From Labrenzia sp. OB1 (GTDB taxonomy: Bacteria; Pseudomonadota; Alphaproteobacteria; Rhizobiales; Stappiaceae): a DNA stretch of 64,000 nt. Position numbers and translations under genes: made by a program. Within the stretch, counting starts at the first letter, position 1. Each line of letters begins with the position of its first letter. The stretch is from the NCBI RefSeq assembly GCF_001624695.1, contig NZ_JSEP01000003.1, positions 1 to 64,000 of the forward strand. The letters are read 5' to 3'. Under the pieces are notes generated by a model that did not search any database, was not told where the DNA came from, and saw only the letters and a list, made by a program, of their open reading frames with translations. This document shows, piece by piece, positions 11,861 through 24,135 of this stretch.

Positions 11861-12994
11861 TCAGGCCCTTCCAAGACGTTTCTTGACCGCCCGGAGGCTC
11901 CGGCGCAATGCGCGCTTTGCATTCAGGTCCGCATCGCCGAGGACTGCCTTCAGATGTCCCACGGTCCCCAGCGAGGCCAGCAGCGTCGCGGTTTCAACGC
12001 GACCCCGCCAGAGCGGCTCGATCATGGAATGGCCGGGAACTGCCAGGGAATCTGCGCCCTTGAACCCCGGCATGTCCAGATTTTCCCGCAGCGCATGCAG
12101 CGTGATCTGCGCGCCTGGAGAAAAGCGCGCCCGGTTCTCGTCGAAGGCGATCTTCCAGGAAAAGACACGCCCCCGATCTTGAATGAGCACAAGCGCTGCA
12201 ACCAACGTATCGCCGACCTTGAGCTGATCGATGCGTACGCCGTCCCCGGCAGCAAGGTTGGCGATTGCGGATCTGGAGAAGGCTTCGGTCTGCGGACGGC
12301 TTGACAGCGCTGTTCCCGACCTGCCCTTCCACCCCGAGGCCTCCAGTCGGAGAAAAGCGTCGAAGGCAGCCGGCACGGCCTGACCGGTCAGGCTTTCAAA
12401 ACTTAATTCATGTTCATCCCCGAGACGGCGCAGCAGCCTGCGCATTTCCTTGCGCCTTTTGCCGCTGAAGGCGGCCTGCAACTGCTCTTGGCCTTTGGGA
12501 CCCGCATCATGACCCGATCGCTTTTCCTGCGCTGTGACCGTTATCCGCACCGCGTTGGTTCCACACAGATGCGAAGCTGTTTGCGAGGCGAGCGGCAGAT
12601 AGGGAATGGCAAGCAGCGCTCCGGATCCGGCAGCGCCCTTGAGAAAGGCGGCAACGGCATCCGGCCCGGCCTGCGGGTGCATGAGGGGCGTACCGAGTGG
12701 AGAATAATCCGTCGCCCAGACCGTGGCGGCAGCGAACGTGAGCCCGAGACGGCGCCGGCCCACGGGAGCGGCCATCAGCCAGACACCCGTCCTGCCGTCA
12801 CGGACGACGGCAAGCCGAACCGGCCGATGTTCCATATGCCGCAGATAGGGGCACAGAAACGCCGGACTGAAAAACGGATTCGGATCGAGCGCATCATTGC
12901 ACAACTGCCGCCAGACGCCGGGCGGCAGGTCTTCATTCAAAGGATCGAAGAAACAGAACTCCGGTTCCGGTGGAGCAATCGAATCACGGGTCAA
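11861..12994 (-). CDS. GNAT-like acetyltransferase of the CelD/BioF2 type (PF13480)
   Basis: A 377-residue cytoplasmic protein with the double-GNAT architecture of the Acetyltransf_6 family: KRRKEMRRLLRRLGDEHELSF in the middle, FLRLEASGWKGRSGTAL and the C-terminal FSWKIAFDENRARFSPGAQI, a signature I associate with CelD-like proteins. Members act in exopolysaccharide or cellulose synthesis, adding acyl groups, but few have been tested. Its start overlaps the end of the flippase gene by 11 bp, so the two are co-expressed and may both serve one surface polysaccharide. No glycosyltransferases are adjacent. Confidence 0.82.
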   Translation of the reverse strand: MTRDSIAPPEPEFCFFDPLNEDLPPGVWRQLCNDALDPNPFFSPAFLCPYLRHMEHRPVRLAVVRDGRTGVWLMAAPVGRRRLGLTFAAATVWATDYSPLGTPLMHPQAGPDAVAAFLKGAAGSGALLAIPYLPLASQTASHLCGTNAVRITVTAQEKRSGHDAGPKGQEQLQAAFSGKRRKEMRRLLRRLGDEHELSFESLTGQAVPAAFDAFLRLEASGWKGRSGTALSSRPQTEAFSRSAIANLAAGDGVRIDQLKVGDTLVAALVLIQDRGRVFSWKIAFDENRARFSPGAQITLHALRENLDMPGFKGADSLAVPGHSMIEPLWRGRVETATLLASLGTVGHLKAVLGDADLNAKRALRRSLRAVKKRLGRA

Positions 12995-14402
12995 CCGGCC
13001 GCTCCCTGGTTACGAAGAGGAGGGGTACGACGAATGTCGTGATATGAAGCTTGCGTCTTACCGTCAGCGCAAGAGCCGCAGCCTCGAAGAAGATGGCGCA
13101 ACTCGTGGCGATTGCCGCGCCTGCAAGACCCAGCAACGGGATCAGGGCGAGGTTGAAAACAACGTTCATCAGGAAGGTTGCCGCATAAATCACGGCACAG
13201 GACTTCTGGTGCCCGGTCATGGTCAACAAAGCATCCGCCGGACCGACGGATGCCCGGGCAAGGACACCGATCATCAACAGTGCGATCAGCGGATAACCGC
13301 TTTCAAAGCCACTGCCGAACATGCGCAGCAGCAGCGGCGCGATCAGCAGCAACCCCGCACCGGCGGCAAGAGACGGCCAGAAGGTCCAGTGTGTCGCCTG
13401 GCGGACATAATCGGCAAGGCCGGCCCGATCATCATTGTGCAGATAACCGGAAAACCGGTGCGCTGAAGCCGATCTCACCGCGAAATAGACGAAATGGACG
13501 AGGGCAAGGGTCTTGGAAGCGGCGAAATAGACCGCCACCTTGTCCGGGTCTTCAAAGAAACTGATCATGATGACGTCGGCACTGGTGATCAGTTGCAGGA
13601 ACCCGTCCACCAGAAGCATCGGCGCGGAAACCGCCAGCCAGAACTTCAGGTCGACCTTGCGGGGACCGGCCGGAACCTTCGGCGCCAGCCGTCCCTGCAG
13701 ATGAACATATTGGTAGAGCGCGATCAAAACGGTGGCCGATACGACCGCGACCGTGGCCGTCAGGGCGTCGGTTTGCAGCCCGGCGAGCGCGGCAAGAACA
13801 AGCAGCAGCAGAATGGTCAGGGGTCGCCAGATATAGGTGGGCACCATCGCCAGCGCCGGCCAGTCATAACTGCGTGCGATACCATCCTGCACCTGGGCGA
13901 TTGTGAAGAACGGCAAGGCGAACAAAACGGCAATCAGCGGCAGAACGTAATCGGCATCGATAGCCGAGCGGAACATGAAAACAAGGCCGATCCCGAGCGC
14001 ACCGGTCACTGTTCCGAGAAAGAAGGCGGTTTGCCGGCTGATACGCAGAAAGCCGCGCAGGCCGTCCATATCGCCGGTCTGCAGATATTGCGGGATAAAC
14101 CGGCTGGCGGACGTTGAAAACCCGCCACAGGTCATCGCGCCGATGACAATCAGGAAGGTCCATGCAACGGAGTAAATACCGTAATCATGCGCTCCAAGAA
14201 GCCGCGCCAGAACGATCTGTGAGAGATAGGCAAGCGCCGCGCCGCCAACACGGATCGCGAACGTCGAAACCGCCATGCGGCCCGCGGTACCCTGGTCCGT
14301 CCCACTGCCCCGCAGCAGCGCGGCAGCCTTCGCTGCCTTGCCCAGAGCCTGAGACAAGACGGCGTTTTGAAAAGGTTTTGCCAAGAAAGCCGAAAATCGC
14401 AA
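12984..14402 (-). CDS. Polysaccharide flippase (Wzx/MurJ-like, MOP superfamily)
   Basis: A 472-residue integral membrane protein with about 12-14 predicted helices, beginning after a 45-residue soluble lead (VSTFAIRVGGAALAYLSQIV... is the first helix). The pattern of a Wzx-type oligosaccharide exporter is clear: AHDYGIYSVAWTFLIV, GFSTSASRFIPQYL, ASVGPADALLTMTG. Such proteins flip undecaprenyl-linked glycans across the inner membrane. It is paired with the CelD-type acetyltransferase (11-bp overlap). A start further in (near GRMAVSTFAIRV) is also possible. Confidence 0.88.
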   Translation of the reverse strand: MRFSAFLAKPFQNAVLSQALGKAAKAAALLRGSGTDQGTAGRMAVSTFAIRVGGAALAYLSQIVLARLLGAHDYGIYSVAWTFLIVIGAMTCGGFSTSASRFIPQYLQTGDMDGLRGFLRISRQTAFFLGTVTGALGIGLVFMFRSAIDADYVLPLIAVLFALPFFTIAQVQDGIARSYDWPALAMVPTYIWRPLTILLLLVLAALAGLQTDALTATVAVVSATVLIALYQYVHLQGRLAPKVPAGPRKVDLKFWLAVSAPMLLVDGFLQLITSADVIMISFFEDPDKVAVYFAASKTLALVHFVYFAVRSASAHRFSGYLHNDDRAGLADYVRQATHWTFWPSLAAGAGLLLIAPLLLRMFGSGFESGYPLIALLMIGVLARASVGPADALLTMTGHQKSCAVIYAATFLMNVVFNLALIPLLGLAGAAIATSCAIFFEAAALALTVRRKLHITTFVVPLLFVTRERPVDP

Positions 14403-14578
14403 ACACGGATCCTTTTTGAATTCTTGTCCGTATTTGTGACATGAAGGCCTTAATATTCAATGGCGATTGAAATTCCGGCATCCGTATCGATTCACAGATA
14501 CGTGAACGTGGCGGGCCTGCGAATAGGACCGCCGATGTCCATAACCGCAACACACAGGACGCCTCTGGGAATCCAGGC

Positions 14579-14608
14579 TTGACGTGCCTTGCCGAATATG
14601 GAACAAAT
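14579..14608 (+). promoter_or_regulatory. Putative promoter overlapping the LexA box
   Basis: TTGACG at 14579-14584 is a good -35. With a 17-18 bp spacer the -10 falls within AACAAAT at 14602-14608, inside the LexA box. The -10 resemblance is weak (AAAT half only), so the promoter rests mainly on the -35 and on the fact that a terminated transcript follows. LexA binding here would block RNA polymerase directly. Confidence 0.5.
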
Positions 14609-14615
14609 AGTGAAC
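14601..14615 (+). promoter_or_regulatory. LexA (SOS) box GAAC-N7-GAAC
   Basis: The sequence GAACAAATAGTGAAC is an exact match to the alphaproteobacterial LexA operator (direct repeat GAAC spaced by 7). It lies in non-coding DNA, overlapping a probable -10 element, 200 bp from the start of the leftward flippase gene and immediately upstream of a terminated rightward transcript. An exact match to this 8-base-specified motif is expected about once per 65 kb per strand by chance, so the case rests on position as well. Confidence 0.6.
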
Positions 14616-14617
14616 AT

Positions 14618-14769
14618 TGATTCGAAGGACCTGCCAACCGCGCAGTATCGGTCCCGACCGATCGAAAAAGTGCAACAGCATTGCGGATGTCGAGGGTTGC
14701 CTCCCCTTCTATCCGCAGTTTGGTCCGGCTCCTGCCCCCGCCGCCTTCCGCAGGAGCCGGACATTTTTT
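14618..14769 (+). ncRNA. Candidate SOS-controlled structured small RNA
   Basis: About 150 nt between the LexA-box promoter and a strong intrinsic terminator, with no convincing ORF: the only open frames start inside the operator or run through the terminator. Three hairpins can be drawn. SL1 is ATCGGT/ACCGAT (14647-14662, loop CCCG). SL2 is TGCGGAT/ATCCGCA (14682-14688 with 14711-14717) enclosing GAGG-GTTG-CCTC. SL3 is the terminator. The A-rich linker GAAAAAGTGCAACAGCA between SL1 and SL2 could be single-stranded, as Hfq-binding or target-pairing regions are. Not recognised as any known Rfam family. Transcription start is inferred. Confidence 0.5.
14723..14769 (+). terminator. Rho-independent terminator of the candidate small RNA
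   Basis: A perfect 13-bp stem, GTCCGGCTCCTGC (14723-14735) with GCAGGAGCCGGAC (14750-14762), a 14-nt loop, then A and six T (14764-14769). The T-run exists only for rightward transcription, yet no rightward protein gene precedes it for over 2.5 kb. It therefore marks the end of an independent rightward transcript. Confidence 0.85.
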
Positions 14770-14800
14770 CCGGGAAAACGCTCAACCGCTCGCAGGCCAG

Positions 14801-15199
14801 TTATTCCGGCAGGGCTTCCGCATAGTACCAGCGGCCGGCCTTTTTACGGAAACGGCTAAGTTCCCGGTGCGTGTGCAATGTGCCGCCGGAAAGATATCTT
14901 GCTTCGAAAAGAACCGTGCCTTCGCGGTCGCCTTTCCCGCCTTTTTCAGTTGCCAGGACGCGCAAGCCGGTCCAGTGATTTTGAGCCGCCCATCTGGCGG
15001 TTTCCAACTCATCAAAGCCATCCTGGTGTTTCGGCCAGAGTGTTTCTTTCAGGTAGGCAATATTCTGTCGGACATAGGCGGTGTATCGCGAGCGCATCAG
15101 CGCTTCCGCGGTTTCGGGAAACGCTTCGCCGCCGAGAAAACGCCCGCAGCAGCGATCGATCGGTTCGCCGCCGCCACACGGACAAGGGTCATCGGCCAT
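14801..15199 (-). CDS. YchJ-family (UPF0225) SEC-C motif protein
   Basis: A 132-residue protein with the N-terminal Cys cluster C6-P-C8-G-G-G...RCCGRF (C17, C18), which resembles the zinc-binding SEC-C motif. The NTF2-like YchJ core follows: ALMRSRYTAYV, YLKETLWPKHQ, HWTGLRVLATEKGG, HRELSRF and GRWYYAEA. Length and order fit the family. Its biochemical role is unknown. Monocistronic, pointing left toward the small RNA terminator; divergent from the EEP-family gene. Confidence 0.88.
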   Translation of the reverse strand: MADDPCPCGGGEPIDRCCGRFLGGEAFPETAEALMRSRYTAYVRQNIAYLKETLWPKHQDGFDELETARWAAQNHWTGLRVLATEKGGKGDREGTVLFEARYLSGGTLHTHRELSRFRKKAGRWYYAEALPE

Positions 15200-15302
15200 G
15201 CCGGTCTCCTGACATCAAACTTTTTGTTCTCTACCACTGGTTCACAGAACCGTCCCACCGCTAAGGTGTCGGTCCACGTTCCATACGGTCTGGCCCGGCG
15301 CA

Positions 15303-16274
15303 ATGAAACTTGCAACCTTCAACATCGAATCCTTCGGCGCCGATCGTTTCGACGCAGCGGCTTTGAAACCGCGAGTGAACGCCCTGCGACCGAGAATACG
15401 GGAACTGGATGCCGATATTCTCTGCCTCCAGGAGGTAAACGCACAAAAGGTGACGGGGGCTCCCAGGCGCGGGTTTCCGGCGCTTGACCTGCTGCTCTCG
15501 GATACGCCCTACGAGGTCTATCACCTTGCCGCCAGCGAGCGGGCACCGGGCAAGGGACCGGGTGACAGGCACAATCTGGTGGTTCTGTCGCGCTTCCCGA
15601 TCATATCCGCCGAGAGCCTCTTTCAGGCTCATGCCCATCCGATTCTGTGGCAACCCGGAACGGCCGACCCGGCATATGGTGCACCGCAGGCGATCGAATT
15701 CGACCGGCCCGTCCTGAAAACCGAAATCGATATCGGCGTCGGTAAGCCGCTGCATCTTTTCGCGGTTCACCTGCGCGCGCCGATTGCGGCGAATATCCGG
15801 GGAGGCAAAACGGACAGCCGCACATGGAAAAGTATTCCGGCCTGGGCGGAAGGCTATCAGCTCTCTGTCCTGAAACAGATCGCGCAGGCCCTGGAACTGC
15901 GCCTGGCGGTCGAAGCGCTGCTCGATGCCGATGAGGCAGCGCAGGTGATCCTAGCCGGAGACTTCAATGCCACCGGCGAAACCGGAACCTTGCGTCTCCT
16001 GCGCGCCGACCCGGATGACACCACCTCGCCGGACCTTGCCCCGCGCCGGCTTTTCCAGCTTGACGCCTCGCTACCGCTCGACCGGCGCCGGACGATCCTG
16101 CACAAGGGCAAGGGTCAGGCGCTCGATCATATCCTTGCAAGCGCAGCAATGACTCACAGGACCATTGATGTCCGGGTCTTCAACGACAATCTGCCCGATG
16201 AAATCTTCGACGCCGGCGACCCGGAGATCGCAGGCTCCTTCCATGCCGCGATGCGCGCGGAATTCAATATGTAA
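15303..16274 (+). CDS. Endonuclease/exonuclease/phosphatase (EEP) family protein
   Basis: A 323-residue protein of the DNase I-like EEP fold with the expected metal and catalytic motifs in order: KLATFNIESFG, CLQEVNAQ (catalytic Glu), VVLSRFPI, HLRAPI, GDFNATGE and LDHILAS followed by the C-terminal GSFHAAMRAEF (catalytic His). Substrate could be DNA, a nucleotide, a sphingolipid or an inositol phosphate; sequence alone does not decide. No signal peptide. It ends 9 bp before the convergent cytochrome gene. Confidence 0.85.
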   Translation: MKLATFNIESFGADRFDAAALKPRVNALRPRIRELDADILCLQEVNAQKVTGAPRRGFPALDLLLSDTPYEVYHLAASERAPGKGPGDRHNLVVLSRFPIISAESLFQAHAHPILWQPGTADPAYGAPQAIEFDRPVLKTEIDIGVGKPLHLFAVHLRAPIAANIRGGKTDSRTWKSIPAWAEGYQLSVLKQIAQALELRLAVEALLDADEAAQVILAGDFNATGETGTLRLLRADPDDTTSPDLAPRRLFQLDASLPLDRRRTILHKGKGQALDHILASAAMTHRTIDVRVFNDNLPDEIFDAGDPEIAGSFHAAMRAEFNM

Positions 16275-21504: not shown

Positions 21505-24135
21505 CTAGTATGCCGGCACGGTCTGGCGGCGGCGCTGCATCAGGATCACAAGCCCCAGCAGCAGCAACGCAGGAATGTAGAAGACTTCCTTCGCCATCCT
21601 TTCTGCGGGCAATTGCACTTTCGAAACCACCACGCTTTCGTCGGCGTAGTAGTCGTATCCCTGCAATTGGGTGAAATACGGTGTTCCGGGCAGCGGCTCC
21701 TCGAGGATCGTCTTGTCGCCGTCTTCCATGACCGTCAGGCCGATCTTGAAAAGGCGGTCGGTCCCGTCGTCGGCTTTCGGCCCGAGTTCAAGCACCAGCG
21801 TCAGATCCTCGATCTGGTCGGGATCGTCGAAATCCGGTCCCGAAACCACAATTCGAAGCGTACCGCCGTCCTCGACCTCACCGGCAAGCTGAACCAGATC
21901 CGAACCCGGCCGGTCGACATAAGGAGGCTGGACGTAGTCGAGCCAGAACCCCGGACGGAAAAGCGTGAAGGCGACCAGAAGCAGGGCGACAGTCTCCCAT
22001 ATCCGGCTTCTGGCAAGGAAGTATCCCTGCGTCGCCGCCGCGAAGAGCATCATCGCCGTCACCCCGATGACGAAGATGAAGACCGCCTTCACCGGTCCGA
22101 CGTCGATCAACAGCAATTCCGTGTTGAAAATGAAGAGGAACGGCAGAAGCGCTGTGCGGATATCGTAACTGAAGCCCTGGATACCGGTGCGGATCGGGTC
22201 CCCTCCGGATATGGCCGCCGCCGCAAAGGCCGCGAGACCCACAGGAGGCGTGTCATCCGCCAGGATACCGAAATAGAACACGAACAGATGCACCGCGACC
22301 AGAGGCACGATCAGCCCGCTCTGTGCACCGACGGTGACGATCACCGGCGCCATCAGCGACGAGACCACGATGTAGTTCGCTGTTGTCGGCAGACCCATCC
22401 CGAGGATCAGGCTCATGATCGCCACGAGAAAGAGCATGAGCATCAGGTTGCCTCCGGAGAGGAACTCGACGAATTCGCCGACCACCTGGTGCGCGCCGGT
22501 CAGCGATACCGTCCCGACGATGATGCCGGCGGCACCCGTGGCCACACCGATGCCGATCATGCTGCGGGCGCCGGAGATCATGCCGTCGACGAAGTCCCTG
22601 AAGCCCTCTCTCCAGGCCGCGCTCATCTCGCCGCTTGCCCGCAAGGCGGCTTTCAGCGGCCGCTGGGTGAGCACGATGGTGAGCATGGCGATGGTCGCCC
22701 AATAGGCGGATGTGGTCGGCGACAAGCGCTCGATCAGGATGCACCAGATCAGGATGACGATGGGCAGCAGGAAATAGAACCCGGTGACTGCCACGTCCCA
22801 TGCCCTTGGCAGTTCTTCGATAGGAGCATTCGGGTCGTCCATCTCCAGATCCGGATACCGGGAGGCAACCACAGCCAGAATGACATAGGCGGCAAGACAG
22901 ATCAGCGCTGCAGCGGTGAAAGTCAGGTTCGGAAACACCACCTTGATCCAGCCGAGACCGTAATAGACCACGGCGGCAAGCACGCACATGGCGATGAAGC
23001 CGAAAAGAACGCCGGAAAGACGCCGCGCAAGGGTGGCGGTTATCGTCGACCGCTTCATGCCTTCCAGGCCCAGCTTCAGGGCTTCCAGATGCACGATATA
23101 GACGAGCGCTATGTAGGAGATCACCGCCGGCAGGAAGGCGTGCTTGATGAGTTCAGGATAGGAAATTCCGGTAAATTCGGAAATCAGAAACGCCGCCGCG
23201 CCCATGACCGGCGGCGTAAGCTGGCCGTTTGTGGAGGAAGCGACTTCCACGGCGCCCGCCTTTTCGGGCGAAAACCCGGTGCGCTTCATCAGCGGAATGG
23301 TGAAGGTGCCGGTGGTCACCACATTGGCGATGGAAGACCCGGAGTAGAGACCGGACAGGGCCGAAGCAACCACGGCCGCCTTGGCCGGACCGCCGCGCAG
23401 ATGGCCGAGGAGGGCAAACGCCAGCTTGATGAAATAGTTGCCCGCGCCGGCTTTCTCCAGCAGCGAGCCGAAAAGCACGAACAGAAAGATCATCGAGGCG
23501 GAAACGCCGAGGGCCACACCGAAGACGCCCTCCGACTGCATCCAGTAGTGCCACATGGCCTTGCCCAGGGACGCCCCTTTCCACTGGATCGCATCCGGCA
23601 TGAACGAGGCATGGCCAAAGAAGACGTAGAAGACGAAAACGGAGGCGACAATCACCAGCGGCAGACCGAGAGAACGGTAGACCGCGATGCCCAGGCTGAT
23701 CATGCCCATGATCGAAAAGACGAGATCGGCGGTGGTCGGTAGACCGGCGCGGCTGGCTATTTCTTCCTTGAAAACAAAAAGATAGATACAGGACGAGGCG
23801 CCGAGCAAGGCCAGCACCCAGTCGTAAAGAGGGACACGGTCACGCGGTGACGACTTGAAAAGCGGATAGGCCAGCATCGCCAGCGCAAGGGCGAACGCCA
23901 GGTGGAACTGCCGCGCTTCCTGATTGTTGAAAACAACGTTGACCCCTGTCAACTCGGTCAGGACATAAGGAACATTGGAGGCGATATAGATCTGGAAGGT
24001 GGACCAGACGAACGCGAGTGCCAGTATGAATTTACCTGCCGCGCCTGCCGCTGACCGGGCACCGGTCTCGACCTCGGCGACCATCATATCCACATCGACG
24101 TCTTTTTCGCGCCTGGTATCGTCTTCAGCTGACAT
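21505..24135 (-). CDS. TAXI-type TRAP transporter fused 4TM/12TM permease
   Basis: An 876-residue inner-membrane protein fusing the small (DctQ-like) and large (DctM-like) TRAP subunits. Many helices; DctM-type motifs GLYSGSSIANVVTTGTF, STNGQLTPPVMGAAAF, LGMGLPTTANYIVVSSLMAP and ADDTPPVGLAAFAAAAISGGDP are conserved. The C-terminus (about 700-876) carries a DUF3394-like soluble domain followed by one last helix and a basic tail. It imports its substrate using an ion gradient together with the TAXI binding protein encoded upstream. Substrate unknown; dicarboxylates or amino acids such as glutamate are common for this subfamily. Confidence 0.93.
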   Translation of the reverse strand: MSAEDDTRREKDVDVDMMVAEVETGARSAAGAAGKFILALAFVWSTFQIYIASNVPYVLTELTGVNVVFNNQEARQFHLAFALALAMLAYPLFKSSPRDRVPLYDWVLALLGASSCIYLFVFKEEIASRAGLPTTADLVFSIMGMISLGIAVYRSLGLPLVIVASVFVFYVFFGHASFMPDAIQWKGASLGKAMWHYWMQSEGVFGVALGVSASMIFLFVLFGSLLEKAGAGNYFIKLAFALLGHLRGGPAKAAVVASALSGLYSGSSIANVVTTGTFTIPLMKRTGFSPEKAGAVEVASSTNGQLTPPVMGAAAFLISEFTGISYPELIKHAFLPAVISYIALVYIVHLEALKLGLEGMKRSTITATLARRLSGVLFGFIAMCVLAAVVYYGLGWIKVVFPNLTFTAAALICLAAYVILAVVASRYPDLEMDDPNAPIEELPRAWDVAVTGFYFLLPIVILIWCILIERLSPTTSAYWATIAMLTIVLTQRPLKAALRASGEMSAAWREGFRDFVDGMISGARSMIGIGVATGAAGIIVGTVSLTGAHQVVGEFVEFLSGGNLMLMLFLVAIMSLILGMGLPTTANYIVVSSLMAPVIVTVGAQSGLIVPLVAVHLFVFYFGILADDTPPVGLAAFAAAAISGGDPIRTGIQGFSYDIRTALLPFLFIFNTELLLIDVGPVKAVFIFVIGVTAMMLFAAATQGYFLARSRIWETVALLLVAFTLFRPGFWLDYVQPPYVDRPGSDLVQLAGEVEDGGTLRIVVSGPDFDDPDQIEDLTLVLELGPKADDGTDRLFKIGLTVMEDGDKTILEEPLPGTPYFTQLQGYDYYADESVVVSKVQLPAERMAKEVFYIPALLLLGLVILMQRRRQTVPAY

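Follow-up and report, generated by a model that had tools for sequence, protein, structure and literature searches.

The locus lies in the window, by which we mean the whole stretch of 64,000 nucleotides that was analysed, between two leftward-reading genes of the flippase and YchJ types. Its parts and neighbours are:

12984..14402, minus strand: flippase-like gene (Polysacc_synt), flanking the RNA locus
14579..14584, plus strand: -35 element TTGACG, from a motif reading of the window
14601..14615, plus strand: LexA box GAACAAATAGTGAAC (GAAC-N7-GAAC), exact, overlapping the expected -10
14615..14769, plus strand: proposed small RNA of ~155 nt, its start inferred from the promoter position
14616..14679, plus strand: 5′ segment, not conserved, with a local fold in this species only (folding and alignment)
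14680..14772, plus strand: conserved module, equivalent to the imuA codons from IADLEG onward (comparison of loci)
14682..14717, plus strand: hairpin, with stem 14682-14688/14711-14717 and inner stem 14692-14696/14704-14708
14697..14703, plus strand: loop of that hairpin, UUGCCUC
14723..14769, plus strand: terminator hairpin of 13 bp followed by T6, with CGCCGCC in its loop
14801..15199, minus strand: YchJ-like gene, across from the flippase gene where the lost operon would have stood
15303..16274, plus strand: Exo_endo_phos gene

The arms of the terminator stem (14723-14735 and 14750-14762) enclose a 14-nt loop and are followed by an A and then by the T6 (14764-14769). A sequence-only reading of this DNA had reported the -35 TTGACG, the exact GAAC-N7-GAAC box and the 13-bp stem with its T6, all of which are present at these positions, and the rightward terminator ending at 14769 can indeed be assigned to none of the neighbouring genes (flippase, minus; YchJ, minus; Exo_endo_phos, plus). 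The same reading saw no credible ORF, which is right for the stand-alone locus, but an 80-aa ORF (14617-14859) includes the frame ..IADVEGCLPFYPQFGPAPAPAA.., and this is the beginning of ImuA without the remainder.

The RNA from 14612 to 14769 folds at -63.1 kcal/mol (z -4.22), as well as which none of 200 shuffles folds; on the opposite strand z is -2.17 and five of 200 shuffles do as well. A simple terminator scan returned no terminator at the window locus or in two relatives because its loop limit is 8 nt, and a simple promoter scan returned no promoter at the same loci, where a canonical -10 is absent. An Rfam scan of window positions 14000-15300 (E up to 5) gave at best 21 bits where the gathering score is 50, and on six homologous loci this RNA had no gathering-score match, the one match at that level in the scan (the ffh RNA, RF01793) sitting elsewhere in locus L065. 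No known family is thus found at gathering score, an outcome in favour of the small-RNA reading.

Conservation of the module and its LexA box

A 301-base query matched the window's genome (G000) and 20 of 24 other genomes of the same genus, and none of 16 genomes from other families of the order. The DNA conserved among the 21 matching loci is mainly the last ~90 nt, comprising the hairpin and the terminator hairpin, and a covariance model of this module (R1) matched 64 of 87 Stappiaceae genomes. When classed by reading frame and by ImuB, the 64 loci fall into 27 of imuA type (12 in Roseibium and 15 spread over four further genera), 29 stand-alone Roseibium loci (that of the window and 28 further), and eight from genus g22 in which the imuA frame is shortened or missing. 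The R1 search detected no module in four of 45 Roseibium genomes (G009, G014, G015 and G083). Searching 249 genomes sampled from the order with R1 gave nine matches, five of them in Stappiaceae; the other four are weak (29.0-37.2 bits) with no exact box at their loci, and were rejected as instances of the module beyond the family. Two of these four, both of family f6 (G301, L203:1500-1575, and G029, L204), carry a look-alike hairpin, TTGCGGATCGA..GATCCGCA, with a C-rich loop, a terminator and no LexA box; the best Rfam match of this RNA, Atu_C7, scores 14.4 bits where the gathering score is 45.

Exact GAAC-N7-GAAC boxes number two in the window against 2.38 expected by chance, the second lying at 21891-21905, and we therefore rejected a single box as evidence by itself; that of the RNA locus carries weight because it is conserved across loci. 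An exact box lies within 300 nt upstream of the module in 62 of the 64 module-bearing loci, a conservation that speaks for the small-RNA reading; it was found upstream in 21 of 21 loci of the first same-genus search (reverse-strand loci being reoriented), and it is kept in 28 of the 29 stand-alone Roseibium loci. All 28 stand-alone loci with an exact box have TTGAC 21-33 nt upstream of it, mostly at 21-22 or 29-33 nt; G070 has a degenerate box and a weak U-tract. That this motif is the LexA operator, as the earlier reading stated, is supported in G000, where two exact boxes precede lexA itself. Across that genome the pattern GAACAWANNNNGAAC was counted 13 times, against three for the reversed control, including sites near genes with UvrA, ChlI (ComM/ChlI), MmcB-like and IMS (ImuB) domains. 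Protein searches find both LexA and RecA encoded in G000, and no exact box was found near its recA. With GAAC-N7-GAAC in its promoter, as in members of the LexA regulon, we infer that the RNA locus is under LexA control and would be induced by DNA damage.

The module is far better conserved than its surroundings. Among 300 pairs from 25 of the 29 stand-alone genomes (G021, G070, G075 and G084 being left out) it is 82.1% identical, against 50.5% for the spacer, 49.7% downstream and 48.4% for random sequences. For 11 hand-picked close genome pairs the corresponding values are 95.0% for the module, 72.6% for the spacer and 69.5% downstream, with 85.7% at rpoB third positions. The spacer value bears on the three hairpins of the sequence-only reading, of which the second and the terminator hairpin are conserved but the 5′ one is not.

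Covariation among relatives is found in these two 3′ stems. In a model-fitted alignment, whose model drew mainly on stand-alone loci and so favours them, pairing holds in 96.5% of cells, and both-side changes are seen in 15 of 25 pairs, a level reached by none of 500 shuffles; shifting the partner by 1-3 columns lowers pairing to 37-52%. A MAFFT alignment of 21 mixed loci, not fitted to the model, gives 93.6% pairing and both-side changes in seven of 25 pairs (0 of 500 shuffles), with one of five measures (pair types) not above the shuffles (323 of 500). Covariation is seen in the imuA-type loci as well, chiefly in the terminator stem (helix 3: both-side changes in nine of 13 pairs, 93.2% of cells paired, five genera), which would therefore already have served the imuA message as an RNA element while the gene was still present. 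Pairing of the first stem reaches 94.5% of cells in the stand-alone loci, 67.0% in those of imuA type and 63.1% in the imuA-type loci of Roseibium (94.3 for stand-alone and 66.9 for imuA-type loci with identical rows merged).

Thirteen of the 29 stand-alone loci have no in-frame ATG, GTG or TTG between the box (or the last stop) and the module. The remaining 16 do have one upstream, with TTG or GTG only in 12 of them, a part of the set, and they share no common start position. In-frame stops occur at or before module codon 12 in G023, G069, G084 and G087; in many stand-alone loci no stop interrupts the ImuA frame across the hairpins, and lengths vary widely. Judged by these comparisons the module is kept as a structured non-coding RNA and its reading frame is not maintained. 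The locus thus has the features of a small-RNA gene: its own promoter (without a canonical -10), a conserved structure, an intrinsic terminator and no maintained ORF.

Origin from imuA

In eight of the 21 loci of the first search the conserved stretch lies inside an open frame of ~320-380 aa, and in 27 of the 64 module-bearing loci the module sits in an open ImuA frame (at least 270 codons onward) that is followed by an ImuB match. The assignment to ImuA comes from NCBIfam NF033429 at 30.7 bits, under its 150-bit cut-off; a Pfam search of the frame gave no match, and in G008 the identity is backed by the frames for imuB and dnaE2 that follow. In other Stappiaceae the arrangement is a leftward flippase gene, then LexA box, imuA and imuB (and dnaE2 where read), and a stem-loop with a loop of the CGCCGCC type is conserved in five genera near the start of imuA, within its first ~50 codons. 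The window's genome has no full imuA ORF (about 300 aa); at the window locus only the N-terminal ~40 codons of ImuA are recognisable, and both this homologous 5′ end and the genomic position are those of imuA.

A flippase gene adjoins 25 of the 29 stand-alone loci and 19 of the 27 imuA-type loci, and YchJ is found within the limited flank of 16 of the 29. Among the imuA-type genomes, the operon of G017 is bracketed by flippase and YchJ, that of G003 is followed by YchJ with no flippase found, and at the G008 locus neither was found. The native imuA operon has no flippase found beside it in G001, G003, G004, G007 and G008 (L063-L067, with L112 for G008 and L113 for G003), and for this reason it may have moved, or its flanks been rearranged, in these five genomes.

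The remainder of the operon is distributed accordingly. Counting matches to E 1e-20, an ImuB 62-100% identical to that of G008 is present in all 12 imuA-type Roseibium genomes and in none of the 29 stand-alone genomes, whose only ImuB matches are 37-43% identical to it. ImuA itself was searched in 41 genomes only, and in G006, G019, G020 and G022 a weak ImuA match (31-32%) abuts the other ImuB. In G000 the second cassette includes frames for imuB and dnaE2. Within the frame that precedes this second imuB, 41 nt before its start, stands an exact LexA box (L186:2758-2772; G000:C68:185757-185771), which may mark an internal SOS promoter in the replacing cassette. Taken together, these comparisons indicate that the window locus is the retained promoter and 5′ end of imuA, left after the imuA-imuB-dnaE2 body was lost. 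The sequence-only reading was therefore well founded as to a LexA-type promoter with a short, terminated, conserved and structured RNA, but it missed the imuA origin; rather than an unrelated new SOS gene, the locus is the promoter and 5′ coding end of a classical one.

In an rpoB tree of 62 genomes, six of those with imuA-type loci fall within the stand-alone group (supports of 0.992 and 0.958 at two nodes, low at the others), and under loss-only counting several losses would therefore be required. In the flippase protein tree 24 stand-alone Roseibium genomes form a group separate from those of imuA type (support 0.918), which is compatible with one loss there; G021/G075, G084 and genus g22 look separate from that loss. 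Seven of the g22 loci (L090-L092, L094, L097, L105 and L109) have a shortened imuA frame, ~47-54 codons from the module, behind a LexA box and mostly without a U-tract, and these short frames are apparently a parallel loss. With a U-tract defined as at least five T within eight bases after the stem, one is present in 26 of 29 stand-alone loci, seven of 12 Roseibium imuA-type loci, none of 15 imuA-type loci of other genera and two of eight g22 loci. Its presence in Roseibium imuA-type loci suggests that the terminator may have formed inside imuA before the gene body was lost.

A possible role in the SOS response

These findings suggest a regulatory RNA switched on by DNA damage and born from the start of a gene. 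The reading we favour, with a probability of roughly 0.65, is of a LexA-controlled small RNA that derives from the imuA 5′ end, acts in trans and has outlived its gene. DNA damage would inactivate LexA through cleavage and free the promoter, and RNA polymerase would initiate near 14615 and stop near 14769, giving an RNA of ~155 nt. The exposed UUGCCUCCCC (CCUCC) loop could then pair with translation starts of target mRNAs at GGGGAGG-like sites, lowering their translation during the SOS response. Early termination within imuA probably gave rise to the RNA, which would have been retained once another imuAB-dnaE2 cassette took over. For the fuller scenario, in which an SOS small RNA born by imuA attenuation was freed on cassette replacement, gained a fuller hairpin and adds a post-transcriptional arm to the alphaproteobacterial SOS response, we see the odds as about even.

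The loop sequence UUGCCUCCCC is invariant or nearly so among the stand-alone loci and is complementary to the Shine-Dalgarno-like GGGGAGG. When the loop is paired with five G000 translation starts, the duplexes are not clearly beyond shuffles, the best being with imuB′ (-17.5 against a shuffle mean of -13.9, sd 3.2), and searches for AGGGGAGGC-N1-9-ATG in sets of 5 and 11 genomes gave no specific signal; the starts of D-Ala-D-Ala ligase-like genes matched this pattern in four of the five genomes of the first set. The start of an ATP-grasp-like gene, examined in 33 loci and located in 28, is preceded by GGGGAGGC in 14 of 16 stand-alone, four of four module-less and three of eight imuA-type cases. 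This site is the most recurrent Shine-Dalgarno match, but there is no signal specific to RNA-bearing genomes. A strong GGGGAGGC-AATG ribosome site before the ATP-grasp-like gene (L245 and 32 other loci) recurs in most of the Roseibium genomes checked, whether or not they carry the RNA. With these target searches negative, pairing of the loop with ribosome sites is a guess from its composition.

Other accounts of the locus can be set against the favoured one. The module could be essentially a cis-acting imuA attenuator, the stand-alone copies yielding a by-product RNA of at most secondary importance; the covarying terminator stem within the imuA frame of five genera and the U-tract in seven of the 12 Roseibium imuA-type loci speak for it, but we consider it unlikely as the whole explanation since it does not account for the keeping of box and module in 29 genomes without the operon body, where neighbouring DNA drifts, or for the fuller first stem of the stand-alone loci. 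A functionless, decaying remnant of a deleted imuA would agree with a locus that is literally the undeleted end of the operon, with the four Roseibium genomes that have no detectable module and with the decayed look of G070. Such a remnant is nonetheless improbable, given that the module is far more conserved than either its flanks or rpoB third positions, that 15 of 25 pairs have both-side changes and that the box is exact in 28 of 29 loci.

We give very little credence to a short SOS-induced peptide from the ImuA N-terminus as the product, for which one may point to the frame that is open through the hairpins in many loci and the in-frame start of 16 of the 29, since the other 13 have no start, the starts that exist share no position, four genomes have early stops, lengths differ widely and sequence changes follow base pairing. 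Equally hard to credit is an element acting at the DNA level only, either as a LexA-titrating operator or as a terminator insulating neighbouring genes: the box and terminator are its best known parts and the terminator faces the convergent YchJ gene, but the conserved hairpin and loop between them would go unexplained, and the minus strand has no T-run after the terminator stem.

Comparison with known LexA-controlled and early-terminated RNAs

If the favoured reading of a small RNA acting in trans is true, it provides a LexA-controlled regulatory RNA for the alphaproteobacteria and a worked case of small-RNA gene birth, in which an early-terminated mRNA start is retained after operon loss; the relatives, some retaining the operon body and others lacking it, offer a natural set in which this path can be tested. 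Among the papers listed in a partial library on LexA and small RNAs in alphaproteobacteria, on imuA and small RNAs, and on small RNAs of Roseibium or Labrenzia, none reports this RNA.

Control of the imuABC mutagenesis operon by LexA is described in PMC3901139. The window locus resembles imuA-imuB-dnaE2 (imuABC) in its promoter, LexA box and 5′ coding end, and differs in lacking the gene body, while its hairpins and terminator persist as an RNA of their own. In enterobacteria DinR is a LexA-controlled small RNA from an SOS gene (PMC10907235), and by that description it is under LexA by way of its host SOS gene, as is proposed for the Roseibium RNA; it is, however, cut from the 3′ end of the mRNA and depends on Hfq, whereas the Roseibium RNA is a 5′ end with its own terminator whose gene has been lost. 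ChvR and other mitomycin-induced small RNAs of Caulobacter are likewise alphaproteobacterial, and respond to DNA damage. As far as the consulted sections of PMC6237742 go, ChvR is under ChvI-ChvG and no SOS box is reported near the mitomycin-induced small-RNA genes, in contrast to the LexA box of the Roseibium locus. For rnTrpL and other attenuator or riboswitch RNAs of Sinorhizobium, PMC9373788, whose reference list includes Melior (2019), describes early-termination products with a role in trans shown or proposed. These share with the Roseibium RNA an alphaproteobacterial host and its probable origin in early termination, and differ from it in that their parent operons persist and LexA is uninvolved.
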